Assembly: GCF_005233835.1 (NCBI RefSeq)
Contig: NZ_SZQA01000017.1
Location: 62,001 to 126,000 of the forward strand
DNA: 64,000 nucleotides
Source of the DNA: Herbidospora galbida
GTDB taxonomy: Bacteria > Actinomycetota > Actinomycetes > Streptosporangiales > Streptosporangiaceae
Direction of reading: 5' to 3'
Shown in pieces: positions 47,408 to 64,000 of this stretch. Made by a program: the position numbers and the translations under genes. The notes below the pieces were generated by a model. The model was given only the letters and a program-made list of their open reading frames with translations. It searched no databases and had not been told where the DNA came from. The number at the start of each line of letters is the position of its first letter. Within the stretch, counting starts at the first letter, position 1.

Positions 47408-47411
<4 letters not shown>
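46398..47411 (+). CDS. MacA-like periplasmic adaptor with peptidoglycan-binding domain
   Basis: A 337-aa protein with an N-terminal membrane anchor ([19 protein letters not shown]). A barrel-type segment comes next ([40 protein letters not shown]), then a PG_binding_1 insert at about 115-160 ([19 protein letters not shown], then [12 protein letters not shown]). The C-terminal half is a membrane-fusion beta-barrel ([39 protein letters not shown]). Family role: bridges an ABC exporter to the envelope in actinobacteria. It is encoded directly upstream of the matching ATPase. Confidence 0.85.
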
Positions 47412-48068
<657 letters not shown>

Positions 48069-48076
<8 letters not shown>

Positions 48077-49256: not shown

Positions 49257-49268
49257 CCGGCGTTTACC
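49250..49268 (+). promoter_or_regulatory. OmpR-type site upstream of the response-regulator gene
   Basis: CGCTTAACCGGCGTTTACC matches 16 of 19 bases of the site at 45854-45872. It overlaps the permease stop codon and lies about 23 bp before the regulator start, so it could drive an internal autoregulated promoter. Confidence 0.55.
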
Positions 49269-49291
49269 CCCGGAACGGCAGGATGCGGACC

Positions 49292-49945
49292 ATGCGGGTG
49301 CTGGTGGCCGAAGACGAGAAGGTGCTGGCCCGGGTCGTGGCGGCCGGGCTGCGCCGGGAGACGATGGCGGTGGACGTCGTGCACGACGGCGACGCCGCCC
49401 TGGAACGCGCGCTGACCAACGACTACGACGTCATCGTGCTCGACCGCGACCTGCCGGCGGTGCACGGCGACGACGTGTGCCGCCAGCTGGTCGCCCGGCG
49501 GATCCCGGCCCGCATCATCATGCTCACCGCCGCCGGCGACCTGCGGTCGAAGGTCGAGGGCCTGTCGATCGGCGCCGACGACTACCTCGCCAAGCCGTTC
49601 GACTTCCCCGAACTCGTCGCCCGGCTCCGGGCGCTGGCCCGGCGGGTGCCGCTCGCGCACCCGCCGGTGCTGGCGCGGGCCGGGGTGACCCTCGACCCGG
49701 CCCGCCGCGAGGTGTTCCGCGACGGCCGGTACGTCGCCCTCAGCCCGAAGGAGTTCGCCGTGCTGGAGATCCTGCTGCGGGCCGAGGGCACCGTGGTCAG
49801 CGCGGAGGACCTGCTGGAGAAGGCGTGGGACGAGAACATCAGCTACTTCACCAACTCGGTGAGGGTCACCGTCATGACCCTGCGCAGGAAACTCGGCGAC
49901 CCGCCCGTCATCGAGACCATCACCGGCGCCGGATACCGCCTGTGA
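49292..49945 (+). CDS. OmpR/PhoB-family response regulator
   Basis: A 217-aa protein. Receiver domain 1-115: acidic pair in VAEDEK, phosphoacceptor in IVLDRDLP, Thr/Ser switch in IIMLTAAG and Lys in DDYLAKPF. The winged-helix domain at about 125-217 carries LSPKEFAVLEILLRAEGTVV and VTVMTLRRKLG then ITGAGYRL. The ATG at 49292 gives the standard MRVLVAEDE opening. A GTGA overlap couples it to the sensor kinase. Likely regulator of the exporter operon upstream. Confidence 0.92.
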   Translation: MRVLVAEDEKVLARVVAAGLRRETMAVDVVHDGDAALERALTNDYDVIVLDRDLPAVHGDDVCRQLVARRIPARIIMLTAAGDLRSKVEGLSIGADDYLAKPFDFPELVARLRALARRVPLAHPPVLARAGVTLDPARREVFRDGRYVALSPKEFAVLEILLRAEGTVVSAEDLLEKAWDENISYFTNSVRVTVMTLRRKLGDPPVIETITGAGYRL

Positions 49946-51060
49946 ACCGCATGCCGATCAGGGCCCGGCTCACCGTCGTCTACGGGAGCCTGTTCTGCGC
50001 GGCGGCGCTGGTCCTCGTGATGATCAACTACATCGTCGTCAGCAGGCAGCTCACCCGGCGGGTGACGATCCGCCTGCCGCTCGACGACCTGCCGCCGCTC
50101 ACCGGCGACAAGCAGCTGTTCTTCTTCAACAAGCAGGTCGAGGACTACCACGAGACGGTGCTGGGCGCCCTGGTCTGGTGGTCGCTGCTCGCCGCCGTGC
50201 TGGTCGGCCTGGTCGGCCTGGCCGTCGGCTGGTACGTCGCCAAACGCGCCCTCGACCCCCTGCAGCACGTCACCGAGACGGCCCGCCGCCTGTCGACCGA
50301 CACCCTGCACCGGCGCATCTCGATGACCGGGCCGCACGACGAGATCAAGGACCTGGCCGACACCTTCGACTCGATGCTCGAACGCCTCGACAACGCCTTC
50401 GACGGCCAGCGCCGCTTCGTCGCCAACGCCTCCCACGAACTGCGCACGCCCCTGGCCATCAACCGCGCGCTGCTGCAGGTCTCCATGTCCGACGGGCTGA
50501 TCCCCGCGTCGCTGCGGCCGGTCCGCGACGAGCTGCTGGCGTCCAACTCCCGGCAGGAACGCCTCATCGAGGGCCTGCTCACCCTGGCGCTGAGCGAACG
50601 CGACCTGAGCGGACGGGAATCGGGCGACCTGGCCGAGCTGGCCCGCCCGTCGCTGCTGGCGCACGGCCTGACGGTGTCGCGCCAGTTCCCGGCGCCGGTG
50701 ATGGGCGACGGGGTGCTGCTGGAACGGATGATCCGCAACCTGGTCGACAACGCGGTGACCTACAACGACGATCGCGCCGAGGTGACGGTCCGGACGGGCA
50801 ACGGAGCGGGCCATTCGTACGTGACCGTGGAGAACACCGGCCGCGAGATCGCCCCCGCCCAGGCCGCCCGGCTGTTCGACCCCTTCATCCGCCTCGACCC
50901 CGATCGGACGGGATCGGCGGGCGGGGCGGGGCTGGGTTTGTCGATCGTCCGGGCCATCGCGCGGGCCCACGGGGGGACGGCGGAGGCCCGGCCACGGGAG
51001 GGCGGGGGGCTGATCGTGACGGTCCGGCTACCGCTCCTCGTCGAGGTCGCTGCCGTCTGA
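49942..51060 (+). CDS. Sensor histidine kinase
   Basis: A 372-aa membrane kinase. TM1 at about 12-32 (VVYGSLFCAAALVLVMINYI), a short extracytoplasmic loop of about 55 residues, and TM2 (WWSLLAAVLVGLVGLAVGWYV). A HAMP region follows (LDPLQHVTETARRLSTD), then the H-box RRFVANASHELRTPLAINRA, N-box MIRNLVDNAVTYN, F-box/G2 LFDPFIRLDP and GGAGLGLSIVRAI. The small sensing loop suggests an intramembrane-sensing type that responds to envelope perturbation. Its 3-prime end overlaps the convergent DUF1648 gene by 33 bp. Confidence 0.92.
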   Translation: MNRMPIRARLTVVYGSLFCAAALVLVMINYIVVSRQLTRRVTIRLPLDDLPPLTGDKQLFFFNKQVEDYHETVLGALVWWSLLAAVLVGLVGLAVGWYVAKRALDPLQHVTETARRLSTDTLHRRISMTGPHDEIKDLADTFDSMLERLDNAFDGQRRFVANASHELRTPLAINRALLQVSMSDGLIPASLRPVRDELLASNSRQERLIEGLLTLALSERDLSGRESGDLAELARPSLLAHGLTVSRQFPAPVMGDGVLLERMIRNLVDNAVTYNDDRAEVTVRTGNGAGHSYVTVENTGREIAPAQAARLFDPFIRLDPDRTGSAGGAGLGLSIVRAIARAHGGTAEARPREGGGLIVTVRLPLLVEVAAV

Positions 51061-52041
51061 CCGGGCCGCGTCGTCGGGCTTCGGGGACTCGGCGGCAGAG
51101 CGGAGGGCGCGGCGGATCTCCTCTGCGCCCAGCGCCGCGTGGTCGACCGTCACCGTGAACTCGCCGCCGTCGCGCAGTGCGACCAGCAGGGCCTCGCCCT
51201 TGCGGATCAGGACCGCGTGGGTGCGCAGGTTGCGCAGCCGCCAGCCCCAGCCCCACTGGCTCGGGTCGACCTCGATCGCCTCGGCCGTCTCGATGTCGGC
51301 CAGGTCGACGCGGCGCAGCGACGGCAGCGGCAGCCGGCCGCGCACGGTGAGCGTGCGGCCGTCGAAAACGGCGGTGACCCCCGACCACAGGTGGAGCCCG
51401 GCCAGCGAGATCAGGGCCGGGATGACGGCCCACTCGCTGCCGACGACGGTCACGCCGAGCAGCAGGCAGGCGGCGGCGAGGGTGTTGCGGAACAGCGGGC
51501 GGTTCTCGGCCGTCCCGATCCAGATCGACCGGCCCCGGCGGGGCGGCCCGGCCACCGGGTCGTCGGGCAGCGCCTCCTCGTCGTCGCGGCGGCGGCGCAG
51601 CGGGCTGACCGCCAGCGCGCCGAACACGGCGCCGGCCGCGCCCATGGCCATCACCAGCGCCGGGGCGTAGCCGGGGGAGCGGGCCTCCTGCCAGGTCGGG
51701 GCGTCGAGGTTGCTGAGGATCGGGCCGATCAGGGCTCCGGTGTTCAGCAGCACGATCAGCCCGAGCGCCACGCCCGCGGCCGCGCGGCGGCCGATGGAAC
51801 CGTCGGGGCGCAGGAACGCGACCAGGCCGAAGACGGCCCAGACGACGGAGCTGAGGATCAGGTCCTCGACGACGGAGGACCACAGGGAGGCCGCCTGGTC
51901 GGGACGGCCCTCGGTGAAGTGGACGGCCACCGGGTCGGGCAGGCGGTCCTGGAGCGTCAGCGGCAGGATGGCCGCCGCAAGGTGGATGAGCGCCGGTAAG
52001 AGGAGAACCACTCTCGCGAAGTGTGAGGACGCCCTCTTCAC
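51028..52041 (-). CDS. DUF1648 membrane protein (possible immunity factor)
   Basis: A 337-aa protein. The DUF1648 signature lies early (VVLLLPALIHLAAAILPLTL, RLPDPVAVHFTEGRPDQAAS), with further helices at about 60-85, 95-120 and 130-150. A cytoplasmic linker and two more helices at about 195-235 follow (AAACLLLGVTVVG, AVIPALISLAGLHLW), then a C-terminal PH-like soluble domain. DUF1648 is also the N-terminal part of SdpI, the immunity protein of the Bacillus SDP toxin. Its position beside an sdpCAB-like operon makes an immunity role attractive, although GntR/DUF1648 pairs also occur alone. GTG start with AGGA upstream. Confidence 0.7.
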   Translation of the reverse strand: MKRASSHFARVVLLLPALIHLAAAILPLTLQDRLPDPVAVHFTEGRPDQAASLWSSVVEDLILSSVVWAVFGLVAFLRPDGSIGRRAAAGVALGLIVLLNTGALIGPILSNLDAPTWQEARSPGYAPALVMAMGAAGAVFGALAVSPLRRRRDDEEALPDDPVAGPPRRGRSIWIGTAENRPLFRNTLAAACLLLGVTVVGSEWAVIPALISLAGLHLWSGVTAVFDGRTLTVRGRLPLPSLRRVDLADIETAEAIEVDPSQWGWGWRLRNLRTHAVLIRKGEALLVALRDGGEFTVTVDHAALGAEEIRRALRSAAESPKPDDAARSDGSDLDEER

Positions 52042-52069
52042 CTGATGGTCCTGAACGTGCGAGCGGATT

Positions 52070-52459
52070 TCACTGGTCCAGGATCTTGTCATAGCTTGGC
52101 CCGCTTTGGAAAGCATGTACCACTAGTTCCACCAGCCTGCCCTGAGTCAGCCCCACCCGATGGGCCTCGGCCGCCACGTGGGCGATGGCGCGGGCCAGCC
52201 GGGGGTCGCCCACACCGGGCGGTTGCGCCACCACGACGGTGCCGCGGCCGCGCCGGACCTCCAGCAGGCCCTCGTCCCTGAGCAACGCGTACGCGCGGAG
52301 AACCGTGTGGAGGTTCACCTGGATGTCATTGGCCAGATCCCTGGCGGGAGGCAGTCGGTCGCCCGTGCGGAGTAGTCCATTGGCCAGAGCGTGGCGGATG
52401 CTCCTGGCGATCTGGTCGAACAGGGGTTCCGCCGAGCTCGGATCGATGCTCAGGCGCAT
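52070..52459 (-). CDS. GntR-family regulator, YtrA subfamily
   Basis: A 129-aa protein. GntR winged helix (PLFDQIARSIRHALANGLLR, PPARDLANDIQVNLHTVLRA, YALLRDEGLLEVRRGRGTVV) plus a short C-terminal arm, as in YtrA-type repressors. It is co-oriented with the DUF1648 gene 28 bp downstream and divergent from the SDP operon. An inverted repeat CCTCG-AACG-CGAGG lies at 52514-52527 and another, TGACA-ACTA-TGTCA, at 52670-52683, either of which could be its operator. Confidence 0.87.
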   Translation of the reverse strand: MRLSIDPSSAEPLFDQIARSIRHALANGLLRTGDRLPPARDLANDIQVNLHTVLRAYALLRDEGLLEVRRGRGTVVVAQPPGVGDPRLARAIAHVAAEAHRVGLTQGRLVELVVHAFQSGPSYDKILDQ

Positions 52460-52669
52460 GCGGCACTCCCAGCCATCAGCCTGGCCGACGGCACGGTCAG
52501 GCGGTTCCACATACCTCGAACGCGAGGCGCGATCATCTTGACACCGCGTCTGCCCGGCCTGTCGTTACGGCCCCATCTGGTCGCGGTGCCGGCCGGGGGG
52601 TCGAGGGCGCCGCCAGGAGTGGCGTGTTCGAAGGTCGACACCCCCAAGGTTCTCTCATGACTTGTTCTA

Positions 52670-52735
52670 TGACAACTATGTCAACCCGCCTGGCACAGGC
52701 AGGCATTTACAGCGTTGTTTGAGAAGTTATATAAC
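52670..52735 (+). promoter_or_regulatory. AT-rich control region of the SDP-like operon
   Basis: The 317-bp divergent region (52460-52776) holds no gene. Its right part is strikingly AT-rich and has two perfect inverted repeats: TGACA-ACTA-TGTCA (52670-52683) and GTTATATAAC (52726-52735), the latter flanked by TTGTT and AACAA. They end about 40 bp before the sdpC-like start. Confidence 0.5.
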
Positions 52736-52776
52736 AAGCCAAGTTGGTATCAAGACGGCAACGACCTGGAGTTGGC

Positions 52777-53307
52777 ATGCGACCAATGATCGTCGGAACC
52801 ATCGTGACCATTTGCGTCATAGCGGCGGGATCGGCCGCGGCGGCGTCCGACCCGCCGGTGAGATACACGGGAGAAGAGCTCTTCTCGGGCCTCCTCCTCT
52901 CCCAGGGCCCGGCGGCGGAGACCTACGCCGACCTGCGCGGCCCCCACTCGAACGTCGTCTGGACGGCGGCCGAGGCCAGCCGGCTGACCGGCCGCATCAA
53001 GGCCCTGGATCCCCGGTTCTTCGCCTCCTTCAAGGCCGACGTCACCAGCGGCGACCGGGTGCGGGTGCACCGGGCCGCGAATCGGGCGGGCGAACTCGCC
53101 GTCAAGGCATACGGGGCCGGCGCCCTCTCCGAGGCGGCCCCCGCCTCGCCGGGCCTGGCCAAGTTCGTCGTGGTCAACCGCACCATCATGAAGCAGACCA
53201 GCGTCGTGGTGAACCAGAACAAGTACTGGAGCGGACCCGACCCGTCCGCGAGCAAGCTCGACCACGAACGGTGGGCCGACGAGGTGGCCGACCGCCTCGC
53301 TCCATGA
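52777..53307 (+). CDS. SdpC-family antimicrobial peptide precursor
   Basis: A 176-aa secreted protein. Signal peptide MIVGTIVTICVIAAGSAAAA, then the family pattern VRYTGEELFSGLLLSQGPAAE, LTGRIKALDPRFFASFKADV, TSGDRVRVHRAANRAGELAV and VVVNQNKYW. Family knowledge: Bacillus SdpC is exported and processed by SdpA/SdpB into a membrane-active toxin. Here the mature part has no cysteine and only modest hydrophobicity near residues 125-150, unlike the disulfide-bearing Bacillus SDP. GGAG lies 5 bases before the ATG. First gene of a coupled operon. Confidence 0.8.
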   Translation: MRPMIVGTIVTICVIAAGSAAAASDPPVRYTGEELFSGLLLSQGPAAETYADLRGPHSNVVWTAAEASRLTGRIKALDPRFFASFKADVTSGDRVRVHRAANRAGELAVKAYGAGALSEAAPASPGLAKFVVVNRTIMKQTSVVVNQNKYWSGPDPSASKLDHERWADEVADRLAP

Positions 53308-53867
53308 CGGCGCGGACGGGCGGCGACCGCTGCCTCGGGGCTGCGACGGTCGCGATCGGGCTGGGCTGGATCGTCGTCATCGGCTATGTCGTGCTCGGGC
53401 AGCTGCCCTCGCCGGCGCTCGAACTGCCCGGCCAGCGGGTGGTCGCGCGGCACTCCCAGGCGATCGCCCCCCAGGGCTGGGCCTTCTTCACCAAGTCGGC
53501 CCGCGATCCGGTGGAGGCCGCCTGGCAGCGCGACTCCGGCGGGACGTGGCGGCCGGCGTCGTCCGGCCCGCACGCCGGGCACAACCTCTTCGGGCTCGAC
53601 CGGGCGTCCCGGGCACAGGCCGCCGACCTGGGCGTCCTGGTCGCCGCGGTGCATGCGGCCCGGTGGGCCGTCTGCGACGACGGCCTGGTGGACGCCTGCC
53701 TCGCCCGGGCCGGGGCGGCCTACCCGGTGACCAACCCGGCGCCGGCGCCCCTGCTGTGCGGGGAGATCGGGATCACCCGGCGGGAGCCCGTCCCGTGGGC
53801 GTGGGCCGACGCCGCCGACCGCACCCGCATGCCGGTGACGGCGGTCCGGCTGGAGGTGGCGTGCTGA
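53304..53867 (+). CDS. SdpA-family protein
   Basis: A 187-aa protein with an N-terminal membrane anchor (LGAATVAIGLGWIVVIGYVVLG) and an extracytoplasmic domain with the SdpA pattern QGWAFFTKSARDP, HNLFGLDRASRAQAADLGVL and REPVPWAWA. Four cysteines lie in the second half (WAVCDDGLVDACLAR, LLCGEIG). Role by homology: needed with SdpB to mature SdpC. ATGA overlap with sdpC. Confidence 0.8.
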   Translation: MTARTGGDRCLGAATVAIGLGWIVVIGYVVLGQLPSPALELPGQRVVARHSQAIAPQGWAFFTKSARDPVEAAWQRDSGGTWRPASSGPHAGHNLFGLDRASRAQAADLGVLVAAVHAARWAVCDDGLVDACLARAGAAYPVTNPAPAPLLCGEIGITRREPVPWAWADAADRTRMPVTAVRLEVAC

Positions 53868-54799
53868 CCCGGCTCGGGGCCGCCGTCCGCGCCCGCGCGG
53901 AGACGAGCCCCTGGACGAACGTGTACGGCCTGGCCCGCACGATGCTCGCGGTCGCCACGCTGCTGACCCTGCTGGCGACCGACACCACGAGCCTGTTCCG
54001 GCCCGTGGCGGGGGTGCCCGACTTCCCCAACTGTGATGACATCGCCCAGTACGGCCTGTTCTGCGTCGCCGGCCCCGGGCCGGGCCGCTACATCGGGATC
54101 GCCGTCCTGGTGGTCGTGGCGACCGGATGGCGGCCCCGGTTCACGGCTCTGCCTCACTGGTGGGTCACGGTCAGCTTCCAGGCGTCCGGCAGCCTGCCCG
54201 ACGGGGGCGACCAGGTCGCGGCGGTCATGACGTTGCTGCTGCTGCCGGTCGCGCTCACCGACGGGCGGCCCTGGCACTGGGGACCGGCCGCGCGGGTGGC
54301 CGACCCGGCCCGGTCGCTGCTGGCCTGGTCGGCGTTCCTGGTGGTCCGACTGCAGGTGGCCGGCATCTACCTGCAGGCCTCGATGGCCAAACTCGGACGC
54401 GAGGAATGGGCGAACGGGACCGCGCTGTACTACTGGCTCAACGACCCCATGTTCGGGAGTCCCGAATGGGCCTCCTGGCTGCTCCGGCCGGTGCTGGCCA
54501 GCGCCGCCGGGGTCACCCTGCTCACCTGGGGGGCGATCGCGGTCGAGTTCGCCCTCGTGCTGGGACTGGTGGCGCGGCGGGAGGCGTGGCCCTACCTGCT
54601 CCTCGCGGGGCTCGGCCTGCACGCGTCGATCGCGCTGCTCATGGGGCTGGGCAGCTTCGCGCTGACCATGATGGCCTGCCTGGTGCTCTATCTGCGCCCG
54701 GCGGACACGCCCCTGCCCGGTCCCGTCCCCATGCCGGTCCACGGGTGGCGTCCCGCCCTGCGGCCCGGCCCTGTTCGTGATCTCTCCACCAAATACTGA
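53861..54799 (+). CDS. SdpB-family membrane protein (HTTM-type)
   Basis: A 312-aa polytopic membrane protein. Family landmarks: SPWTNVYGLARTMLAVATLL, ATGWRPRFTALPHWWVTVSF, LPDGGDQVAAVMTLLLLPV, VVRLQVAGIYLQASMAKLGR and WANGTALYYWLNDPMFG. About seven helices. The fold is related to HTTM/vitamin K-dependent carboxylase-like membrane domains. Role by homology: processing or export of the SDP-type peptide. GTG start with GGAGG, overlapping sdpA by 7 bp. Confidence 0.85.
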   Translation: MLTRLGAAVRARAETSPWTNVYGLARTMLAVATLLTLLATDTTSLFRPVAGVPDFPNCDDIAQYGLFCVAGPGPGRYIGIAVLVVVATGWRPRFTALPHWWVTVSFQASGSLPDGGDQVAAVMTLLLLPVALTDGRPWHWGPAARVADPARSLLAWSAFLVVRLQVAGIYLQASMAKLGREEWANGTALYYWLNDPMFGSPEWASWLLRPVLASAAGVTLLTWGAIAVEFALVLGLVARREAWPYLLLAGLGLHASIALLMGLGSFALTMMACLVLYLRPADTPLPGPVPMPVHGWRPALRPGPVRDLSTKY

Positions 54800-54815
54800 G
54801 CAACTGGGAGGTGCC

Positions 54816-55532
54816 ATGACCGGCGGTCCTGTGAACGGTTTGGTCAGGAAAACCCACAACGGCGAGCCCCGGCCCGAAGCGACTCCACAGCGGCTGGGGA
54901 TCGACCGGTCGGTCGTCACCCGGCGGACCGGGCTCCAGTTCCCCAACCAGCTCTCCTATCCGGCCTGGGAGCGCATAGGCAAGCAGATCTCGCTGATCTG
55001 TGACTCCTCCTCCTGGTGGCTGGGCGACTGGCTGATCTACGGCGAGCAGGCCTACACCGACCGCTACCGGATGGCGATCGAGCAGACCTCGCTCGACTAC
55101 CAGACGCTCCGCAACTACGCGTGGGTGGCGCGGCGGTTCAGCCTGTCGCGCCGCCGCGACAAGCTGAGCTTCGCCCACCACGCCGAGGTCGCCGCCCTGA
55201 GCGAGGAGGACCAGGATCTGTGGTTGCGCCGCGCTGAGCACTTCGGCTGGTCCCGCAACCGGCTGCGGCGCGAGCTGCGCGGCTCGGCCCGGATCGCGGC
55301 GGCCGGGGAGGCCCGGCAGGTGGAAGAGGGGAACGGTGAGCCGAGGAAGCGGGCCCGCGCGGCCCGCGCCGCCGGCCCGGACGGCGACGTGCAGCTCACC
55401 TACAGCCAGGAACAACTCGAACGCTGGAAGCTGGCGGCCAGCCTGCAGAACAGCGACCTGGTCAACTGGATGGTCGAGGCCCTCGAAAGCATCGCCCAGG
55501 AGGTCATCGGCCAGAAACAGCCCGTGGGCTGA
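54816..55532 (+). CDS. LmbU-family transcriptional regulator
   Basis: A 238-aa protein with the LmbU core: TGLQFPNQLSYPAWERIGKQ, ICDSSSWWLGDWLIYGEQAY, TSLDYQTLRNYAWVARRFSL and SRRRDKLSFAHHAEVAALSE, then WLRRAEHFGWSRNRLRRELR. LmbU activates lincomycin biosynthesis and relatives sit in many actinomycete antibiotic clusters. It starts 16 bp after sdpB with GGGAGG, and a terminator follows, so it is most likely the fourth gene of the SDP operon. It also borders the biosynthetic cluster downstream. Confidence 0.87.
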   Translation: MTGGPVNGLVRKTHNGEPRPEATPQRLGIDRSVVTRRTGLQFPNQLSYPAWERIGKQISLICDSSSWWLGDWLIYGEQAYTDRYRMAIEQTSLDYQTLRNYAWVARRFSLSRRRDKLSFAHHAEVAALSEEDQDLWLRRAEHFGWSRNRLRRELRGSARIAAAGEARQVEEGNGEPRKRARAARAAGPDGDVQLTYSQEQLERWKLAASLQNSDLVNWMVEALESIAQEVIGQKQPVG

Positions 55533-55543
55533 CCGGCCGCCTC

Positions 55544-55584
55544 GGGCCGTCTCCGCGTATTCGCGGGGGCGGCCCTTTCCTTTT
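55544..55584 (+). terminator. Intrinsic terminator after the LmbU gene
   Basis: A long stem (GGGCCG with CGGCCC and an inner CCGCG-TATT-CGCGG) followed by TTTCCTTTT. It separates the SDP-LmbU operon from rfbA. Confidence 0.85.
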
Positions 55585-55663
55585 GTCAATGCCTTTCCGC
55601 GATGTTTGCCGCCGCCGGAGTGGGCGTGCTTATTCTTCAGCGCCTTTAAAGAAAGGACGGATG

Positions 55664-56539
55664 ATGAAGGGAATCGTGCTGGCCGGCGGCAGCGGATCGC
55701 GTCTCTATCCGCTCACCCTGGCGACCTCGAAACAGCTCCTCGCGATTTACAACAAACCGATGATCTATTACCCGATTTCCGTGCTGATGCTGGCCGGGCT
55801 GCGGGACATCCTGGTGATCTCGACCCCCGGCAGCCTCCCGGCGCTGCGCAACGTGCTGGGCGACGGCTCCCAGCTCGGCCTGAACCTCTCCTACGCCGCC
55901 CAGCCCGAGCCCAACGGCATCGCCGAGGCGTTCATCATCGGCGCCGACCACATCGGGACCGACCCGGCGGCGCTGATCCTGGGCGACAACTTCTTCCACG
56001 GCGCCGGCTTCCCGCGCATCCTGCGGGCCAGCCGCGAACGCCTCGACGGCTGCGTCCTGTTCGGCTACCCGGTCTCCGACCCCGAGCGCTACGGCATCGG
56101 CGAGACCGACGCCGAGGGCCGGCTCGTGTCGATCGAGGAGAAGCCGCTGCGGCCCAAGTCGGACAACGCGATCACCGGCCTGTACTTCTACGACAACGAC
56201 GTCGTGGAGATCGCCCGCGCCCTGACGCCGTCGAAGCGGGGCGAGCTGGAGATCACCGACGTGAATCTGGCCTACCTGAAGCAGGGCCGGGCCCACCTGA
56301 ACCGGCTCGGCCGGGGCTTCACCTGGCTCGACACCGGCACCCACGACTCGCTGCTGGCGGCCAGCCAGTACGTGCAGGTCATCGAGCACCGCCAGGGCGT
56401 GCGGGTGGCCTGCCTGGAGGAGATCGCGCTGCGCATGGGCTACATCGACGCCGACGCCTGCGCCCGTCTCGGGGCCGGGATGAAGAACTCCGAGTACGGC
56501 CGGTACCTGATGGAGATCGCGCAGTCGCTCGGCTCCTGA
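55664..56539 (+). CDS. rfbA: Glucose-1-phosphate thymidylyltransferase
   Basis: A 291-aa protein, the normal length. Nucleotide-binding GGSGSRLYPLT, then SKQLLAIYNKPMIYYPISVL, EAFIIGADHIG, LILGDNFFHGAG, GLYFYDNDVVEIAR, GELEITDVNLAYL and TWLDTGTHDSLL. Role: makes dTDP-glucose, the first step to dTDP-deoxysugars. An isolated rfbA at the edge of an NRPS cluster suggests a glycosylated product; the remaining sugar genes are not in the window. ATG at 55664 chosen (AAGGA 7 bases upstream) over the one 3 bases earlier. Confidence 0.95.
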   Translation: MKGIVLAGGSGSRLYPLTLATSKQLLAIYNKPMIYYPISVLMLAGLRDILVISTPGSLPALRNVLGDGSQLGLNLSYAAQPEPNGIAEAFIIGADHIGTDPAALILGDNFFHGAGFPRILRASRERLDGCVLFGYPVSDPERYGIGETDAEGRLVSIEEKPLRPKSDNAITGLYFYDNDVVEIARALTPSKRGELEITDVNLAYLKQGRAHLNRLGRGFTWLDTGTHDSLLAASQYVQVIEHRQGVRVACLEEIALRMGYIDADACARLGAGMKNSEYGRYLMEIAQSLGS

Positions 56540-56593
56540 ATCCGCCCGCAAGAAGCTGTCCCGCTGGCGGGACCACGTGAAGGAGCACATGTC

Positions 56594-57661
56594 GTGGACT
56601 ATCGGGCGCTGACCCCGGCCGGCCTCCTGACGGCCGGGTTCGACACCCTCGACTCCCCGTGGCGGGCCCGCTGGGAGCCGGGGGACCACACGGAGTTCGT
56701 ACAGGAGCACCTGCCGCCGGAGATCGACTTCGCCACCTCCGGGAGCACCGGCGCCCCCCAGGTCTGGCGGCGGCGGGCCGGGAAGGTGTGGGCGGAGGCG
56801 GGCCTGCTGGCCGAGCTGGTGGCCCCCGAGGAGCCAGGGGCGGTGTTGTCGTTCGCGCCGACCGTGCACCTCTACGGGGCCCTCACCAGCGTGCTGATGC
56901 CCGCCTGGCTGGGGGTGCCGGTGTGGCACCGGACGTCGTTCTTCGGGGCGATGCCCGCGCTGCCGACGCGGCGGGTCGTGGTGGTGGCCACGCCGTGGAT
57001 CTTCAAGCTGCTGCTCGAACACCTCGACTGGGTGCGGTCGATGGAGCACGTGACCGTCCTCTACGGCGGCGCGATGTTGCCCGGCACGGCCGGTGAGCTG
57101 CTCGACCGGACCGGCCGGACGCTCATCGTCGAGGTGATGGGCTCGACCGAGGCGGGCGGCATCGCCACCCGGCGCTGGTCGTCGGGGGAGCCGCCGGCCT
57201 GGACGCTCTTCCGGGACGTCGACTTCCACGGCGTCCCGCCGAAGGAGGAGGCGCCGCTGGTCGTCACGAGCCCCCGGCTCGCCTACCGGCCGGGGGGCGA
57301 GCCGCCCGCGTTCTGGGAGGCCGACGACCACGTCGAGGTGACCGGGCCGCGCGAGTTCCTGCTGACCGGGCGGCGGAGCCGCCTGGTGAAGGTGAACGGC
57401 CGCCGGATCAACCTCGACCTGGCCGAACACGCCGCCGGCGCGGTGCTCGACTGCGCCGACCTGGCCGTCGTCGCGGTGACCGACCCGGTCATCGGCGAAC
57501 ACGTCGACCTGCTCGTCGTGCTCCGGCCGGGCACCGAGCTGGCCGACCTGGATCTGCCCGCCGCCTTCGAGCGGCTGGGAGTGCGGCCCCGCCGGGTGCG
57601 GGCCGTACCGGAAATCGAACGCTCAGCGATGGGCAAGGCGACAACGAAGGTGACCACATGA
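56594..57661 (+). CDS. Short adenylate-forming (AMP-binding) enzyme
   Basis: A 355-aa protein, well below the usual 500-550 aa. Motifs: DFATSGSTGAPQVWRR (P-loop-like A3), SFAPTVHLYGALTSVL, VMGSTEAGGIATRRW (A5), LLTGRRSRLVKVNGRRINL (A8 hinge) and SAMGKATTKV (A10 Lys). The N-terminal subdomain before A3 is almost missing. GTG start with GGAG upstream. Overlaps the MIO enzyme gene by 4 bp, so it may activate that enzyme's product (a cinnamate- or beta-amino-acid-type acid). Length and context differ from standard NRPS loading enzymes. Confidence 0.75.
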   Translation: MDYRALTPAGLLTAGFDTLDSPWRARWEPGDHTEFVQEHLPPEIDFATSGSTGAPQVWRRRAGKVWAEAGLLAELVAPEEPGAVLSFAPTVHLYGALTSVLMPAWLGVPVWHRTSFFGAMPALPTRRVVVVATPWIFKLLLEHLDWVRSMEHVTVLYGGAMLPGTAGELLDRTGRTLIVEVMGSTEAGGIATRRWSSGEPPAWTLFRDVDFHGVPPKEEAPLVVTSPRLAYRPGGEPPAFWEADDHVEVTGPREFLLTGRRSRLVKVNGRRINLDLAEHAAGAVLDCADLAVVAVTDPVIGEHVDLLVVLRPGTELADLDLPAAFERLGVRPRRVRAVPEIERSAMGKATTKVTT

Positions 57662-59127
57662 CGGTGATCATGGAACGGACCGAGGACGACTACCTCGCCG
57701 AGGTGGTGCGCAGCGCCGCGTGGGACGCCACGATCGCGCCGATCACCCCCGGCGACGTCGAGCGCATGGAGGCCAGCGCGGCGACCATCGCCAAGCACCT
57801 GGCGGCCGAGAAGCCCATCTACGGCCTCACCCAGGGCTTCGGCCCGCTCGTGCTCTACAGCGCCGAGTCGGAGCTGGAGCAGGGCTCCTCCCTCATCTCC
57901 CACCTGGGCACCGCGCAGGGCCGGCCGCTCGACCCGGAGGTGTCGCGACTGATCCTGTTCCTGCGGCTCAACAGCTCCCGGCGCGGCTACTCGGCGGTCT
58001 CGCCGGCGTTCTGGCAGAACCTCGCCGACCTGTGGAACGCCGGGTTCACCCCGGTCATCCCGCGCGACGGCACCGTCAGCGCCAGCGGCGACCTGCAGCC
58101 GCTCGCGGCGGCGGCGCTGGCGTACACGGGGTTCGGCGAGGCGTGGCAGCGCGACGGCGACGGCTGGCAGCGGAGGCCCGCCCGGGAGGTGCTCGCCTCG
58201 CTGGGATTCGCGCCCTTCGAGTGGCCGGTCCGCGAGGCGCTCGCCTTCGTCAACGGCACCGGCGCCAGCCTGGCCGTCTCGATCCTCAACCAGCAGTCGG
58301 CGCTGCGCCTGGTCAGGGCCGGGGCGATGTTGTCGGGGCGGCTGGCGGCCCTGCTCGGCGCCAACCCCGAGCACTACGCCGACGCGCACGCCCACGCCCG
58401 CGGCCAGGCCGGCCAGCTGACGGCCGCGCGGTGGATCAGGGCCGAGCTTCCCCCCGGCCACGTGCGCGACGAGCGGCGGGCGCTCCAGGAGCCCTACAGC
58501 CTGCGGTGCGCGCCGCAGGTCCTCGGCGCGGTGCTCGACCAACTGCGGATGGCGGGGGACGTGCTGGCGCGGGAGGCGCGGAACTGCCAGGACAACCCGA
58601 TCACCTTCGAGGGCGAGGTCCTGCACGGCGGCAACTTCCACGCCATGCCCGTCGGGCTCGCCTCCGACCAGATGGGCCTGGCCGTCCACATGGCCGCCTA
58701 CCTGGCCGAACGTCAGCTCAACCTGCTCCTCAACCCGGCCACCAACGGCGACCTGCCGATGATGCTGACACCGCGCGCGGGCCGGGGCTGCGGCCTGGCC
58801 GGGGTGCAGATCAGCGCGACCTCGTTCGTGTCGCGCATCAGGCAGCTCGTCTACCCGGCGTCCCTCACGACGCTCCCGACGAACGGGTGGAACCAGGATC
58901 ACGTGCCGATGGCCCTCAACGGCGCCAACGGGGTGAGCGACGCGCTCGAATTCGGCTGGCTCATCATCGGGTCGCTGGCGCTGGGCATGGCCCAGCTGGC
59001 GGTCATGGTCGGCGACGAGCCGGAGGGGATCTGGGCGGAACTCGCGGAGATCTCCCCGGCGCTGGACGCCGATCGCCCGATGGCGGCGGAGGTGCGCGCG
59101 GCCCGGGACCTGTTCGACCGCGTCTGA
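57658..59127 (+). CDS. MIO-dependent aromatic amino acid ammonia-lyase/aminomutase
   Basis: A 489-aa member of the HAL/PAL/TAL family. The MIO triad Ala142-Ser143-Gly144 sits in GTVSASGDLQPLA. Catalytic Tyr55 is in IYGLTQGFGP. The substrate-selectivity pair is Ser81-His82 (LISHLGTAQG), as in histidase and tyrosine aminomutases rather than PAL. Other landmarks: FVNGTGASLAVSI, NCQDNPITF and NQDHVPMALNGAN. Clustered with an adenylate-forming enzyme and an NRPS, not with histidine degradation genes, so a biosynthetic role (tyrosine- or histidine-derived lyase or mutase product) is favoured. Confidence 0.85.
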   Translation: MTVIMERTEDDYLAEVVRSAAWDATIAPITPGDVERMEASAATIAKHLAAEKPIYGLTQGFGPLVLYSAESELEQGSSLISHLGTAQGRPLDPEVSRLILFLRLNSSRRGYSAVSPAFWQNLADLWNAGFTPVIPRDGTVSASGDLQPLAAAALAYTGFGEAWQRDGDGWQRRPAREVLASLGFAPFEWPVREALAFVNGTGASLAVSILNQQSALRLVRAGAMLSGRLAALLGANPEHYADAHAHARGQAGQLTAARWIRAELPPGHVRDERRALQEPYSLRCAPQVLGAVLDQLRMAGDVLAREARNCQDNPITFEGEVLHGGNFHAMPVGLASDQMGLAVHMAAYLAERQLNLLLNPATNGDLPMMLTPRAGRGCGLAGVQISATSFVSRIRQLVYPASLTTLPTNGWNQDHVPMALNGANGVSDALEFGWLIIGSLALGMAQLAVMVGDEPEGIWAELAEISPALDADRPMAAEVRAARDLFDRV

Positions 59128-59135
59128 TCGTGAGA

Positions 59136-59164
59136 AAGCCCGGCGGGTGTCTCCCGCCGGGCTT
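59136..59164. terminator. Bidirectional terminator between convergent operons
   Basis: AAGCCCGGCGGG / CCCGCCGGGCTT, 12-bp perfect stem with a 5-nt loop, A-rich before and T/C-rich after, between two convergent genes. Confidence 0.85.
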
Positions 59165-59174
59165 CCTCCTTGTT

Positions 59175-60074
59175 CTATTTCTGGACGAACTCCAGCACGG
59201 CCATCGCGCTGTGCAGTTTGCAGGTGGCCTGGGTGAAGGCGATGCTGCGCGGGCCGTCGAGCACCTCGGCGGTGACCTCCTCGCCCCGGTGGGCGGGGAG
59301 GTCGTGCATGAAGACGGCTTCTGGGCACGCGGCCAGCACCTCGGCGGTCACCTGGAAGGGGGCGAAGAGGGTCCGCCAGTCCGGGTCGGGCTTGCTGGTG
59401 CCGGTCGTCTGCCAGCGGGTGGTGTAGACGACGTCGCGGTCGCCCGGCAGGTCGGTCATGTCGTGGCGTTCGCGGACGGTCGCGCCCGACCGCTTGGCCA
59501 GGCTGTGCAGGTCGTCGAGCACCTCCGGCTCCAGGCCGTAGCCCGGCGGGGTGCGGAACTCCAGGTCGACGCCGGGGAAGCGGGGGAGGGCGCGGGCCAG
59601 GGCGGCGGCGGTGTTGTTGCCCTCGCCCACGTACAGGACCCGGAGGCCCTCCAGGCGGCCGAAGTGGGACCACAGAGTGGTCAGGTCGGCCAGGCCCTGG
59701 GTGGGGTGCTCCTCGGCGCTCATCGCGTTGACGACCGGGAGGCCCGCCGCGCTCAGGGCGCGCATCTCGGCCGCCGGGCCGGCCGTTCTGGCAACCAGGG
59801 CGTCGAGCATGCCGGCCATCACCCGGCCGGTGTCCTCCAGGGTCTCGCCCGTGTTGAGCTGGAGGTCGCCGGGGCCGTAGGAGATCGTCCGGGCGCCCAG
59901 CCGCAGGGCTCCGACGGTGAAGGCGGTCCGGGTGCGGGTGGAGGTCTTGCTGAAGTAGACGCCGACGACCCTGCCGCGCAGCGTCTCCGCACGGTTGCCC
60001 GCGAGGTCGACGCCGCGGCGGACGATGCCCTCCAGCTCGGCGTCGGTGAGGTCGTTGAGGGAGATCAGGTTCAC
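59175..60074 (-). CDS. Ornithine-carbamoyltransferase-like enzyme with altered substrate residues
   Basis: A 299-aa aspartate/ornithine carbamoyltransferase-superfamily protein. The carbamoyl-phosphate site is intact: STRTRTAF and HPTQGLADL. The ornithine side is not: the usual HCLP is HDLPAHRGEEV (Cys to Asp) and the usual DVWxSMG-type loop is VYTTRWQTTG. Therefore a different amine acceptor is likely, for example an N-acyl-ornithine, a diamino acid or a biosynthetic intermediate. GTG start overlapping the NRPS stop (GTGA), so it is translated with the NRPS rather than belonging to arginine synthesis. Confidence 0.82.
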   Translation of the reverse strand: MNLISLNDLTDAELEGIVRRGVDLAGNRAETLRGRVVGVYFSKTSTRTRTAFTVGALRLGARTISYGPGDLQLNTGETLEDTGRVMAGMLDALVARTAGPAAEMRALSAAGLPVVNAMSAEEHPTQGLADLTTLWSHFGRLEGLRVLYVGEGNNTAAALARALPRFPGVDLEFRTPPGYGLEPEVLDDLHSLAKRSGATVRERHDMTDLPGDRDVVYTTRWQTTGTSKPDPDWRTLFAPFQVTAEVLAACPEAVFMHDLPAHRGEEVTAEVLDGPRSIAFTQATCKLHSAMAVLEFVQK

Positions 60075-63000
60075 GGGGCTCCTTCGGCGAGAGCGCTGGT
60101 CAGGGCGCGGGCCAGGTCGGTGACGCAGGGGTCGCGCAGCACGCCCAGATGGTCGCCGGGGACCCGGTGCAGCCGCAGGTCGGCCAGTTCCGACCAGCGG
60201 CGCAGGTAGCCGGCGTAGGTGCTGCCCTGGATGGACTCGTGCTTCTCCTGGACGAGTTCGTCGCACAACACCAGGTGCACGGTGCCCTCGTAGCGGGGGA
60301 AGGGGTAGTCGAGGCGGGCCTGGAGGAGCTCCCGCCACGACCGCAGGCGGTCGGCCCACTCCGGGCCGAGGTCGTCGGCGGTGATCTGCTCGGCGTCCTC
60401 GTCGACCACGTCGCGCAGGACCTCCACCAGTTCGTCGGCCGCGGCGGGATCGCCGAACAGGGCCTCGGCCCGCTTGAAGACCTCCAGCTTGGCCAGGTGG
60501 GCCGCGTCGTCGCCGGCCGAGACGTCCAGGACCGGGTCGAGGAGGACCAGCTCGACCTCCTCACCGGCGGCGCGCAGGCGGCGGGCCATCTCCCAGGTGA
60601 TGCCGCTCGAACCGCACCAGCCCAGCAGGTGGTAGGGGCCCGCCGGGCGGGCCGCGCGCATCGCAGCCAGGTAGAGGTCGGCGATGTCGCCGACCGTGCT
60701 CGCCGGGGGGTGGTCGCCGTGCAGGCCCGGCCATTCGAAGGCGGCCAGCGAGCGGCCGAGCGTCTCGGCCAGCACCCGGTACCAGTGGCCGCTGCCGCCG
60801 CCCGGGTGCACGCAGAACAGCGGCGTCTCCGGCCCCTCCCGCAACCAGACCAGCGGGGAGCGGGGGCCGCCCGTCACGGTGGCCAGGCCCCGGACGGTAC
60901 GGTGCCCGAGGAAGTCGCGGAAGGTCAGGGTGATGCCGTGCTCCTCGCGCAGCCGCACGATGATGCGCATCATCAGGAGCGAGTGGCCGCCGATCGCGAA
61001 GAAGTCGTCGTCCCGGCCGACCCTCGCCAGCCCGAGCACCTCGGCCCACACCCCGGCGATGGTCTGCTCCCTGGCGCCCCGCGGCGGGTCGTCGCGCGTC
61101 GCGGACGTGCCGGCGGGCGACGGCAGGGCCGCCCGGTCGACCTTGCCGTTGGCCAGGCGCGGGAAGGCGTCCATGACCGTGAAGTGGGCGGGCACCATGT
61201 GCGCGGGCAGCACCCCGGTCAGGTGGGCGCGCAACGCGGCCACGTCGAGGCCGGGCTCCGCGATCAGGTACGCCGCCAGCGCGCCCCCCGCCGGATGCGC
61301 CACCGCGGCGCGGACCCCCGGACAGGCGACCAGCGTGTTCTCGATCTCGCCCAGCTCGACCCGGAAGCCGCGCACCTTCAGCTGGTGGTCGGCCCGGCCG
61401 AGGATCTCGATCCGGCCGTCCGGGTGCCGCCGCCCCAGGTCGCCGGTGGCGTAGAGGCGGGCGCCGGGCGGGCCGAACGGGTCGGGGCGGAAGTTCTCCG
61501 CCGTGTGGCCGGGCTGGCCGAGGTAGCCCCGGGCCAGGCCGTCGCCGCCGACGTGGATCTCCCCGGGGACCCCGAACGCCGCCGGTTCGCCACCGGGGGT
61601 GAGGACGTGGGAGGTGGCGCCGTCCGCCAGGAACCACGTGCCGTCGTCGACCCGGGCGCCGAAGCAGAAGATCGTGGCCTCGTTGGGGCCGTAGCAGTCC
61701 CAGACCTGCGCGCCGGTCGCGACCAGGCGGTCCTTCAGCGCCTGGGTCATGGCCTCGCCGCCGGAGACGATCCGGAAGCCCGGCGGCGGCGTCCACCCCG
61801 ACTCGACCAGCATCCGCCACGTGGTGGGGGAGCACTGCATCCAGCTCACGTCGTGCGCGGTCAGCAGGTCGGCGAGGGAGAACGGGTCGCGGGCCAGGTC
61901 CTCGGCGGCCAGGACGAGCCTCGCGCCCTGCGTCAGCGCGCCGAAGACGTCGAGCGTGGCGACGTCGGTGGTGATCGGCACCACGGCCGCCAGCACGTCG
62001 TCGGCCGACAGGCCCGGCGTGTGCGCGTTCGACCTGACCCGGTCGGCCAGCGCGGCGTGCCGGACCATCACGCCCTTCGGGCGGCCGGTCGAACCGGAGG
62101 TGTAGATGACGCAGGCGACGTCGTCGGGCTGCGGCGACCACGGCGTGACGTCGTCGTCGAGCGGCTCCAGGCCGGGCGTGACGACCACGCGCGCGCCCGC
62201 GTCGCGCAGCAGCGCGGCCCGCCGGTCGGCCGGGTCGCGCGGGTCAAGCGGCACGTACGCCGCCCCCGTCCGCAGGACGCCCAGCAGCGCGGCGACCAGG
62301 TCGGTGCTCCGGGGCAGGCAGACCCCGACGACGTCACCGGGGGCGACCCCCATCAGCACGAGCCGCGCGGCCCACCGCCTGGCCCGGTCGTGGAGTTCGG
62401 CGAAGGTCAGCGCGCCGTCGGGGGCGACCACGGCGACCTGGTCCGACACCGGGATCCGCTCGTGGACGGCTCCCCGCCAGCCTTCTCCCCGGGGTCCGCC
62501 GCCGAGCGCGAGGATCTCCGCCCGGTCCTCGGCGGCCAGCGCCGACGCCGCGACGGGGCCGTCGGGGTCGGCGGCCATCGCGGTGAGCACCGTCCGGTAC
62601 ATCCGGGCCAGCAGTTCCCCGTACGGCCGGGCCACCCGCTCCGACCGGAGGGTCAGCACCAGCGCGTCGCCCTCGGTCGAGACGGCCAGCGGGAACTCGT
62701 TCGGGCTGATCTCGCTGCTGGCGGCCGTGTCGACGGCCTCCCGGTCGAGGACGTGGAAGTCGAGGTAGTTGAACACGACCTCCAGCAACCGCCCGCCGTC
62801 GCCGAACTCGCGCTGCATCTCCGCCAGCGGGAAGCGCCGGTAGGGCCACAACTCGACCTCCTCGGCGAAGGTGGCGCGGACGAGGTCGGTCCAGGTGCCG
62901 GAGAAGCCGGGGGCCAGGAACGGGACGGGGTTGAGGAACATGCCCCGCACCCGGTCGCCGTCCTTCACCTCGGGGCGGCCGTTGCTGACCAGTCCGCAGT

Positions 63001-64000
63001 GGAACCGCGGCGCCGATGTGAGGGAGCGCCAGACGGCCAGGTGGGCGGCGAGCAGCACGCTCTTCTTCGAGGCGCCGGCCCGCTTGGCGAGCAGCCGGAG
63101 CCCGGGGTCGAGCCCGGCCAGCGGGACGGTCAGTTCGTAGAGGCCCGGCTCGCCCGCCCAGGACGCCGGGATCTTCACCGGCTCCGCCTCGCCGAGGCGG
63201 TCGCGCCAGAAGGCGCGATGGGCCGGGTCGCGCAGGCCGGCCTGCTCCTGGGCGATGAAGTCGGCGTACCGGACCGAGATCCGCTCCTCGGGGAGGGGCA
63301 GCCCGGCGCGGGCGGCGCGGTAGCAGGCCAGCAGCTCCGAGATGAGCGAGTTGTGGCTCCAGCCGTCGAGGACGGCGTGGCATTCGGTGAAGGTCAGATA
63401 CCAGCGGTCGTCGGCGACCCGGTGGGCGCCGAGGCGGACCAGGGGCGCCTTCGTCAGGTCGAACGGCCGCGCCCGTTCGGCCTCCTGGAACTCGAGCAGG
63501 GTCGACGTGGGCAGGGTCACCTCCATTTCCGCCGTCTCGTGCACGAGCTGGCGGTAGGAGCCCAGGTCGAAGGAGGTCCGGAGCACCTCGTGGCGCTCGG
63601 TGACCGCCTCGGCGGCCCGGCGCAGGGCGGCCGGATCGAAGGGGCCGGTGTCGCGGATCAGATAGCTCGTGACGTTGTGGTAGAGGTTCAGGCCGGGGTC
63701 GGCGAGCATCTCGTACACCATGCCGGTCTGGCCCATGGCCATCGGGTAGGCGTCGGCCAGCCCCTCGGGCAGCAGCGCCCGCTCCTCCGCCGGGATCAGC
63801 GCGAACGGGGCGACGCCCGGCTCCTCGGCGTGCGTCCCGCCGGTCCGGACGAGCGCGCCCACGGTCGGGTGCCGGAAGAGGTCCTGGACCGAGAAGCCGT
63901 GCCCGGCGTCGCGCAGCAGCCCGATCAGCCGGACCGCCCTGATCGAGTCGCCGCCCAGCGCGAAGAAGTTGTCGTCGACGCCGACCCGGTCGACCTGCAG
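60071..64000 (-). CDS. Nonribosomal peptide synthetase, terminal part: PCP-C-A-PCP-TE (5-prime end beyond window)
   Basis: An open frame of 1309 residues entering from the right edge. PCP-1: DDNFFALGGDSI (Ser19). C domain (about 75-500): motif CHAVLDGWS (first His of HHxxxDG is Cys). A domain (about 520-1000): VIYTSGSTGRPKGVMV, WDCYGPNEATIFCFG, LKVRGFRVELGEIEN and PRLANGKVDRAALP; pocket residues D-V-L-Q-V-G-C-I-F. PCP-2: DDDFFAIGGHSLLM. TE: PLFCVHPGGGSGHWYRVLAE, nucleophile elbow GWCGSSG with Cys1129, Asp near LLDPVLD and His in VPGDHLGVL. Last module, incorporating one residue and releasing the chain. Confidence 0.93.
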   Translation of the reverse strand: MQVDRVGVDDNFFALGGDSIRAVRLIGLLRDAGHGFSVQDLFRHPTVGALVRTGGTHAEEPGVAPFALIPAEERALLPEGLADAYPMAMGQTGMVYEMLADPGLNLYHNVTSYLIRDTGPFDPAALRRAAEAVTERHEVLRTSFDLGSYRQLVHETAEMEVTLPTSTLLEFQEAERARPFDLTKAPLVRLGAHRVADDRWYLTFTECHAVLDGWSHNSLISELLACYRAARAGLPLPEERISVRYADFIAQEQAGLRDPAHRAFWRDRLGEAEPVKIPASWAGEPGLYELTVPLAGLDPGLRLLAKRAGASKKSVLLAAHLAVWRSLTSAPRFHCGLVSNGRPEVKDGDRVRGMFLNPVPFLAPGFSGTWTDLVRATFAEEVELWPYRRFPLAEMQREFGDGGRLLEVVFNYLDFHVLDREAVDTAASSEISPNEFPLAVSTEGDALVLTLRSERVARPYGELLARMYRTVLTAMAADPDGPVAASALAAEDRAEILALGGGPRGEGWRGAVHERIPVSDQVAVVAPDGALTFAELHDRARRWAARLVLMGVAPGDVVGVCLPRSTDLVAALLGVLRTGAAYVPLDPRDPADRRAALLRDAGARVVVTPGLEPLDDDVTPWSPQPDDVACVIYTSGSTGRPKGVMVRHAALADRVRSNAHTPGLSADDVLAAVVPITTDVATLDVFGALTQGARLVLAAEDLARDPFSLADLLTAHDVSWMQCSPTTWRMLVESGWTPPPGFRIVSGGEAMTQALKDRLVATGAQVWDCYGPNEATIFCFGARVDDGTWFLADGATSHVLTPGGEPAAFGVPGEIHVGGDGLARGYLGQPGHTAENFRPDPFGPPGARLYATGDLGRRHPDGRIEILGRADHQLKVRGFRVELGEIENTLVACPGVRAAVAHPAGGALAAYLIAEPGLDVAALRAHLTGVLPAHMVPAHFTVMDAFPRLANGKVDRAALPSPAGTSATRDDPPRGAREQTIAGVWAEVLGLARVGRDDDFFAIGGHSLLMMRIIVRLREEHGITLTFRDFLGHRTVRGLATVTGGPRSPLVWLREGPETPLFCVHPGGGSGHWYRVLAETLGRSLAAFEWPGLHGDHPPASTVGDIADLYLAAMRAARPAGPYHLLGWCGSSGITWEMARRLRAAGEEVELVLLDPVLDVSAGDDAAHLAKLEVFKRAEALFGDPAAADELVEVLRDVVDEDAEQITADDLGPEWADRLRSWRELLQARLDYPFPRYEGTVHLVLCDELVQEKHESIQGSTYAGYLRRWSELADLRLHRVPGDHLGVLRDPCVTDLARALTSALAEGAP

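Follow-up and report, generated by a model that had tools for sequence, protein, structure and literature searches.

An SDP-type operon that continues into an LmbU-family regulator gene in Herbidospora galbida: a conserved module and a possible peptide circuit

In a 64,000-nucleotide stretch of the Herbidospora galbida genome (contig NZ_SZQA01000017.1, positions 62,001 to 126,000), which will be referred to as the window, the SDP-type genes sdpC, sdpA and sdpB are followed by a gene for an LmbU-family regulator and diverge from a gene pair encoding a small GntR regulator and a DUF1648-like membrane protein. We propose, with a probability of roughly 0.5, that these six genes represent one conserved regulatory and biosynthetic module within secondary-metabolite clusters, in which a GntR-controlled operon would provide a processed, secreted peptide together with LmbU, and sensing of the peptide would feed back on the operon. 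The proposal is built on the gene content, the overlapping frames, the conservation in relatives, a conserved intergenic element, the missing toxin domain of SdpC and the location in clusters; a single transcript, GntR binding, processing, peptide sensing and the LmbU targets would be its working parts.

Results

An initial annotation made from the sequence alone had named the six genes, and profile searches recovered them at the same coordinates, confirming that observation (Table 1). Four of its family names stand on scores over the curated cut-offs, namely SdpA (PF17418, 123.3 bits, cut-off 25; TIGR04034, 97.3 bits, cut-off 53.1), SdpB (TIGR04033, 277.3 bits, cut-off 178.4), LmbU (NF038070, 228.1 bits, cut-off 125) and GntR (winged helix PF00392, 56 bits, cut-off 27), whereas the SdpC-like protein (TIGR04032, 66.7 bits, cut-off 99.2, with only profile positions 7-118 of 172 matched) and the DUF1648-like protein (PF07853, 22.6 bits, cut-off 28.7) stay below theirs. 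With SdpA and SdpB over the cut-offs beside an sdpC-like gene, the locus qualifies as an SDP-type operon. Its lmbU is the only gene of that family in the 8.3 Mb genome (E <= 0.001), and a scan for defence families yielded nothing beyond one weak GntR match (E 0.002). The layout was also as annotated: sdpC and sdpA overlap in an ATGA, sdpA and sdpB share 7 bases, lmbU begins 16 bp after sdpB and is followed by a 14-pair stem, and the GntR/DUF1648-like pair is divergent. Two terminator-like sites were detected in the region 52000-56000, which is not clearly above shuffled sequences (mean 1.1), though the stem behind lmbU is long.

The module is conserved. In a sample of 297 genomes from the family of the window, searched by profiles with curated cut-offs, SdpB was found at 21 places in 19 genomes and LmbU in 63 genomes. 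LmbU lies directly downstream of SdpB at four of these 21 places: in the window, in Nonomuraea sp. SYSU D8015 (genome G251; loci L062/L074), in N. indica (G122; L063/L077) and at the second copy of genome G212 (L065). N. antri (L075) provides a fifth intact case, and the layout exceeds chance. All five intact six-gene loci, which come from three genera of one family, have the same order, DUF1648-GntR and, divergently, sdpC-sdpA-sdpB-lmbU (GntR being counted in locus comparisons at E <= 1e-15 or better). Synteny in relatives, on which the initial annotation had made its reading depend, was looked for and exists. A search of named genomes returned 25 SDP loci, four of them with LmbU and the GntR/DUF1648 pair (three intact, one a remnant in Sinosporangium album, G004). 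The other 21, some with short flanks, carry neither LmbU nor a DUF1648 relative there, a GntR-like gene being present at a single one of them; the link between LmbU and SDP genes is thus specific to this group. In Streptomyces composti (locus L094) a GntR-like gene (2169-2798, E 9e-28) follows the SDP genes on the opposite strand, with no LmbU in the short contig.

Phylogenetic analyses agree with this grouping. In the SdpB tree (40 rows) the five LmbU-linked proteins group together in a single clade (100/99), whose sister group consists of SDP loci lacking LmbU. In the LmbU tree, which has 36 rows from fetched loci and covers a subset of all LmbU places, the eight module LmbUs share one fork (87/98, not starred), counting in the S. 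album row L028; as this row was unlabelled, the tree table gives two changes, and with the label the module is one side of the fork. The S. album copy is decayed: GntR and lmbU are kept, only scraps of sdpA and sdpB are left (best pieces E 2e-10 to 6e-15) and the DUF1648 gene is truncated. G130 and G033, both congeners of the window, carry DUF1648-GntR and lmbU with no sdpCAB between them. Starred branches inside the module fork read (S. album,(G212,(G033,G130))), and since G212 is intact within this group, parsimony requires at least two separate losses of sdpCAB; judged from the tree, a deletion in G130 and G033 is likely. A candidate sdpC remnant in these two genomes, a short frame starting 40 nt after the conserved element described below and thus near the sdpC start site of the intact loci (37-40 nt), was rejected: 426 and 275 of 1000 shuffled sequences are as similar to G212 at the nucleotide level, and its protein matches are weak (best E 0.014).

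Table 1. Features of the module and of the adjoining cluster, in window coordinates.
Feature	Position	Strand	Remarks
DUF1648-like membrane protein	51028..52116	-	Longest frame 362 aa, with the true start probably at 52035-52011; may be a receptor or an immunity protein
Small GntR regulator	52070..52459	-	129 aa; longest frame to 52510; start backed by relatives
Promoter/operator-like element TTTACAGCGTTGTTTGAGAAGTTATATAACAA	52706..52737	+	Conserved, 32 bp
SdpC-like precursor	52777..53307	+	176 aa; secretion signal and pro-region, without toxin domain
Cysteine-free segment FVVVNRTIMKQTSVVVNQNKYW, SdpC residues 130-151	53164..53229	+	Proposed peptide
sdpA	53304..53867	+	PF17418 and TIGR04034 over cut-off
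sdpB	53861..54799	+	TIGR04033 over cut-off
lmbU-family regulator	54816..55532	+	NF038070 over cut-off
Intrinsic terminator stem-loop 3' of lmbU	55544..55575	+	14 pairs, 12 G-C, T-rich tail
Adjacent biosynthetic cluster, start	55661..63862		Downstream of lmbU
RmlA-like nucleotidyltransferase	55661-56539		Pfam
Adenylate-forming ligase	56594-57661		Pfam
Aromatic amino acid lyase	57658-59127		Pfam
Carbamoyltransferase	59175-60074	-	Pfam
Nonribosomal peptide synthetase (NRPS)	60071-63862	-	Pfam

The SdpC-like protein departs from the toxin precursor that its name implies. Its hydrophobic N-terminus (top hydropathy 2.16 at residue 4) provides the secretion signal expected of such a precursor, and a pro-region is present. 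The alignment to TIGR04032, however, ends at positions 89-118 of 172 in all five linked SdpCs and reaches position 172 in all four unlinked ones scanned, three of which also score below the cut-off (the fourth is over it, at 100.1 bits). The C-terminal hydropathy maximum is 0.17-1.25 in the five linked proteins and exceeds 1.25 in 29 of 31 unlinked rows, a count that includes near-duplicate rows (e.g. L008/L009 and L079/L080) and in some rows of which the motif used to delimit the C-terminal part lies early. By profile and by hydropathy, the C-terminal hydrophobic toxin domain of TIGR04032 was found in none of the five linked SdpCs. In Bacillus, SDP is cut from a C-terminal hydrophobic domain of SdpC, and each SdpC group compared in PMC6818787 is described, in excerpts of that paper, as having such a domain of its own. 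The killing peptide of the initial annotation is therefore not supported. A cysteine-free 22-residue segment, FVVVNRTIMKQTSVVVNQNKYW, is nevertheless present in all five linked proteins with a mean pairwise identity of 0.53, compared with 0.24 for the preceding linker, 0.48 for the pro-region and 0.44 for the tail. Since this segment is conserved while the toxin domain is missing, SdpC appears to yield some product still, though no classical SDP; that residues 130-151 are this product is a guess from conservation. G212 itself has two differing SDP loci, one LmbU-linked and without a hydrophobic core (L065, 9695-11912), the other lacking LmbU and having a longer core (L069, 9360-11622), and in G157 one sdpAB pair is flanked by two SdpC-like genes (L070, 8619-11994).

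The DUF1648-like protein has several hydrophobic stretches (residues 29-251), and five of seven members of its subfamily match PF07853 at E <= 0.05. The SdpI domain PF13630 was detected neither in this protein nor elsewhere in the genome, while five of 14 control genomes were positive. Matches above 250 bits occur in six of the 297 genomes and always beside LmbU, the next best reaching 99.8 bits; all members of this close subfamily that were found stand beside this LmbU. In wider samples the DUF1648 profile picked up three of 54 genomes in the genus of SYSU D8015 (the third, G298, at the N. antri coordinates), three of seven in that of the window, one of 16 in that of G212 and one of 394 in the class, which is the window itself. 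As only about five candidates per genome were scored in the class sample and about six in the 297 genomes, absences in these searches are soft. Relative to G212, the proteins of G130 and G033 are 49-50% identical for DUF1648, 68% for GntR and 75-77% for LmbU, the DUF1648-like protein being intact but the most diverged. Relatives of solved structure were unconvincing (best E 0.021). The distribution fits a partner of the peptide, either a receptor or an immunity protein. For the immunity function suggested by the initial annotation, the lack of PF13630 and the retention of the gene without sdpCAB in two genomes are unfavourable, yet the restriction of the subfamily to this LmbU and its truncation in S. 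album agree with it.

These findings have to be weighed against a toxin and immunity system in which SdpC would give an antibacterial peptide of a new class, DUF1648 would protect the producer, GntR would control both and LmbU would merely be co-timed. Such a system is conceivable but doubtful. The toxin sequence does vary between SdpC groups, and YitQ, which confers immunity to the YIT toxin, is unlike SdpI (excerpts of PMC6818787); SdpA and SdpB are intact in five genomes, and the DUF1648 gene is truncated in S. album, where sdpCAB has decayed. All five linked SdpCs, however, lack the hydrophobic domain, no SdpI-domain protein was found in the genome and two genomes without sdpCAB keep DUF1648. 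We consider it more probable that the peptide acts as a signal than that it is a pore-forming toxin.

Alternatively, GntR, DUF1648 and lmbU might be the working cluster regulator, and the intervening sdpCAB a historical passenger that drifts and is being lost, as its absence or decay in two lineages that keep lmbU and the element, and the reduced toxin part in all five linked SdpCs, would suggest. We regard this as unlikely, because the sdpC, sdpA and sdpB frames are open and overlapping in five genomes of three genera and because the segment 130-151 is conserved well above the linker before it.

The sdpC-sdpA-sdpB-lmbU genes are strongly indicated to form one operon, which would be read as a single transcript. 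Measured to the first plausible start, lmbU lies 16 nt from sdpB in the window, 37 nt in N. indica and 155 nt in G212, and at -4 nt in SYSU D8015 and N. antri, where the two genes overlap in an ATGA. Long inverted repeats, judged by eye, follow lmbU in four of the five intact loci, G212 being the exception. That sdpCAB and lmbU are one unit, as the initial annotation had it, is supported by conservation in five genomes and by the ATGA overlap in two.

A strict sigma-70 scan of the locus gave no promoter, and the control element was located by comparison of relatives instead. The 32-bp element of the window shows 11 mismatches over 96 positions to SYSU D8015, N. indica and N. antri together, against 39 for the best other 32-mer of the region; it has a single copy in the genome at <= 3 mismatches, and the reversed control has none. 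It ends 37-40 nt upstream of the sdpC ATG in all five intact loci. A related form occurs in G212, G130, G033 and S. album, so the element persists before lmbU even where, as in G130 and G033, sdpCAB is gone. TTTACA and TATAAC-like hexamers resembling -35 and -10 boxes can be read within it, and its dyad symmetry is only partial. Lying conserved between gntR and sdpC, it probably serves the divergent GntR as operator and speaks for GntR as the likely regulator, as had been suggested. That lmbU has a promoter of its own inside sdpB or the gap and adjoins sdpCAB by chance inheritance is very improbable: the wide gap in G212 and the survival of lmbU beyond sdpCAB would favour it, but the gap is 16 nt in the window, ATGA overlaps exist at two loci and the sdpC-type element sits upstream of lmbU in both genomes without sdpCAB.

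Downstream of lmbU a biosynthetic cluster begins, which beyond the window continues with NRPS modules, ornithine-cyclodeaminase-like and pyridoxal-phosphate (PLP) enzymes, methyltransferases and a tryptophan halogenase. Among the matches listed, which are complete for the window's own rows, NRPS, carbamoyltransferase, methyltransferase and halogenase genes are common to the window, G212, G130 and G033; the lyase and RmlA-like genes are common to the window, N. antri and S. album, with the ligase also in SYSU D8015. The N. indica contig breaks off next to lmbU, and the only shared gene seen there is a KASIII-like one, which SYSU D8015, N. antri and S. album also have. As the shared genes differ between relatives, the module occurs in two or more overlapping types of cluster. 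Its tie to a biosynthetic cluster is borne out by these neighbours in the window and in relatives; in sum, the unit, the likely GntR regulator and the cluster link of the earlier interpretation are supported, and its killing peptide is not.

An ornithine-cyclodeaminase-like gene and a PLP-dependent enzyme gene stand as a pair beside an NRPS gene in L107 (13571-15537, Pfam), an arrangement which we take to be reminiscent of SbnA/SbnB diaminopropionate synthesis. On its other side the module abuts genes for a MacB/FtsX-type ABC transporter, a response regulator and a histidine kinase (45910-51060). Among the matches listed, the SYSU D8015 locus has relatives of the complete set nearby, and lmbU of G212, G130 and G033 has a different MacB-like pair beside it. 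The Bacillus transporter YknWXYZ, of the MacB/FtsX kind, is described as an SDP efflux pump in PMC4887032.

Discussion

We suggest the following course of events. The four genes would be transcribed together from the element, at which GntR would act as repressor. SdpC would be secreted and processed by SdpA and SdpB, as SdpAB do in Bacillus, releasing a short cysteine-free peptide of approximately residues 130-151 instead of the hydrophobic SDP toxin. The DUF1648-like membrane protein would perceive this peptide and then relieve GntR, in the way that SdpI, when it senses SDP, acts on SdpR. Relief of GntR would therefore result in positive feedback on the operon and in raised LmbU, which might activate the surrounding cluster. 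This would be a new circuit, with SDP export and processing machinery turned to a short pheromone-like peptide, a DUF1648-type receptor, a GntR repressor and an LmbU activator as fourth gene; as a whole we put it forward only tentatively, at well under even odds.

Several observations weigh against the proposed module. The sdpCAB genes are dispensable, being decayed or absent in two lineages in which GntR and lmbU stay, so in those lineages LmbU would be independent of the peptide, and in G130 and G033 the DUF1648-like protein likewise persists without it. DUF1648 relatives occur in 102 of the 297 genomes (E <= 1e-8), and GntR/DUF1648 pairs more distant from that of the module stand without SDP genes, GntR adjoining the DUF1648 relative in both cases looked at. 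Low C-terminal hydropathy is also seen outside the linked SdpCs, in two unlinked rows (0.49 and 1.08) and in the LmbU-free sister group (0.49-1.72). Within SdpC, two pro-region stretches are better conserved than residues 130-151, with identities of up to 0.60. Because of its 155-nt gap before lmbU, the G212 locus has room for a second promoter. Finally, the published LmbU site CGCCGGCG is not enriched in the window; with 18 sites seen and 17.4 expected, the count is uninformative on LmbU targets.

Our searches of an open-licence library gave neither an account of an SDP-type operon linked to an LmbU regulator nor a paper joining DUF1648 with GntR. If the pheromone circuit is true, the congeners that have receptor, repressor and activator but no sdpCAB would be signal-independent or eavesdropping variants. 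The module would then represent a genetically encoded peptide switch for actinomycete antibiotic clusters that could be used to wake silent ones. It would also follow that SdpA and SdpB can act on a precursor that has no membrane-killing segment, making SdpAB chemistry testable on a short peptide.

The closest counterparts are the SDP loci of Planotetraspora sp. A-T 1434 (G059), of the first copy in G212 and of G157, which form the sister group on the SdpB tree and share the order C-A-B with the module. They differ in having no LmbU or DUF1648 relative within 19 kb, and in the two scanned SdpC matches the toxin profile to its end. With the LmbU-family regulators of antibiotic pathways (LmbU of lincomycin, HmtD of himastatin, HrmB of hormaomycin, AcmO of actinomycin) the window LmbU shares NF038070, NRPS-type neighbours and an N-terminal stretch before the family domain (as far as described in excerpts of PMC6510168), whereas it shows no CGCCGGCG enrichment and its gene closes an SDP-type operon that lies behind a GntR-side element. 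The YIT toxin locus yitPOM-yitQ of B. subtilis resembles the window in that the similarity of its SdpC homologue ends before the toxin segment and its immunity protein is unlike SdpI (excerpts of PMC6818787); YitM, however, keeps a C-terminal hydrophobic domain, and no LmbU is described there. In B. subtilis sdpABC-sdpRI, SdpI is immunity protein and receptor and sequesters SdpR when SDP is present (excerpts of PMC1626106). This locus has in common with the window a repressor gene and a neighbouring membrane protein that starts in a DUF1648-like manner, along with SdpA and SdpB homologues and a secreted SdpC-like precursor with a conserved pro-region. The window differs from it in lacking the hydrophobic SDP segment, the proposed segment being cysteine-free, and in a membrane protein without SdpI domain, but also in having a GntR regulator, the gene order C-A-B with lmbU as fourth gene and a divergent regulator pair.

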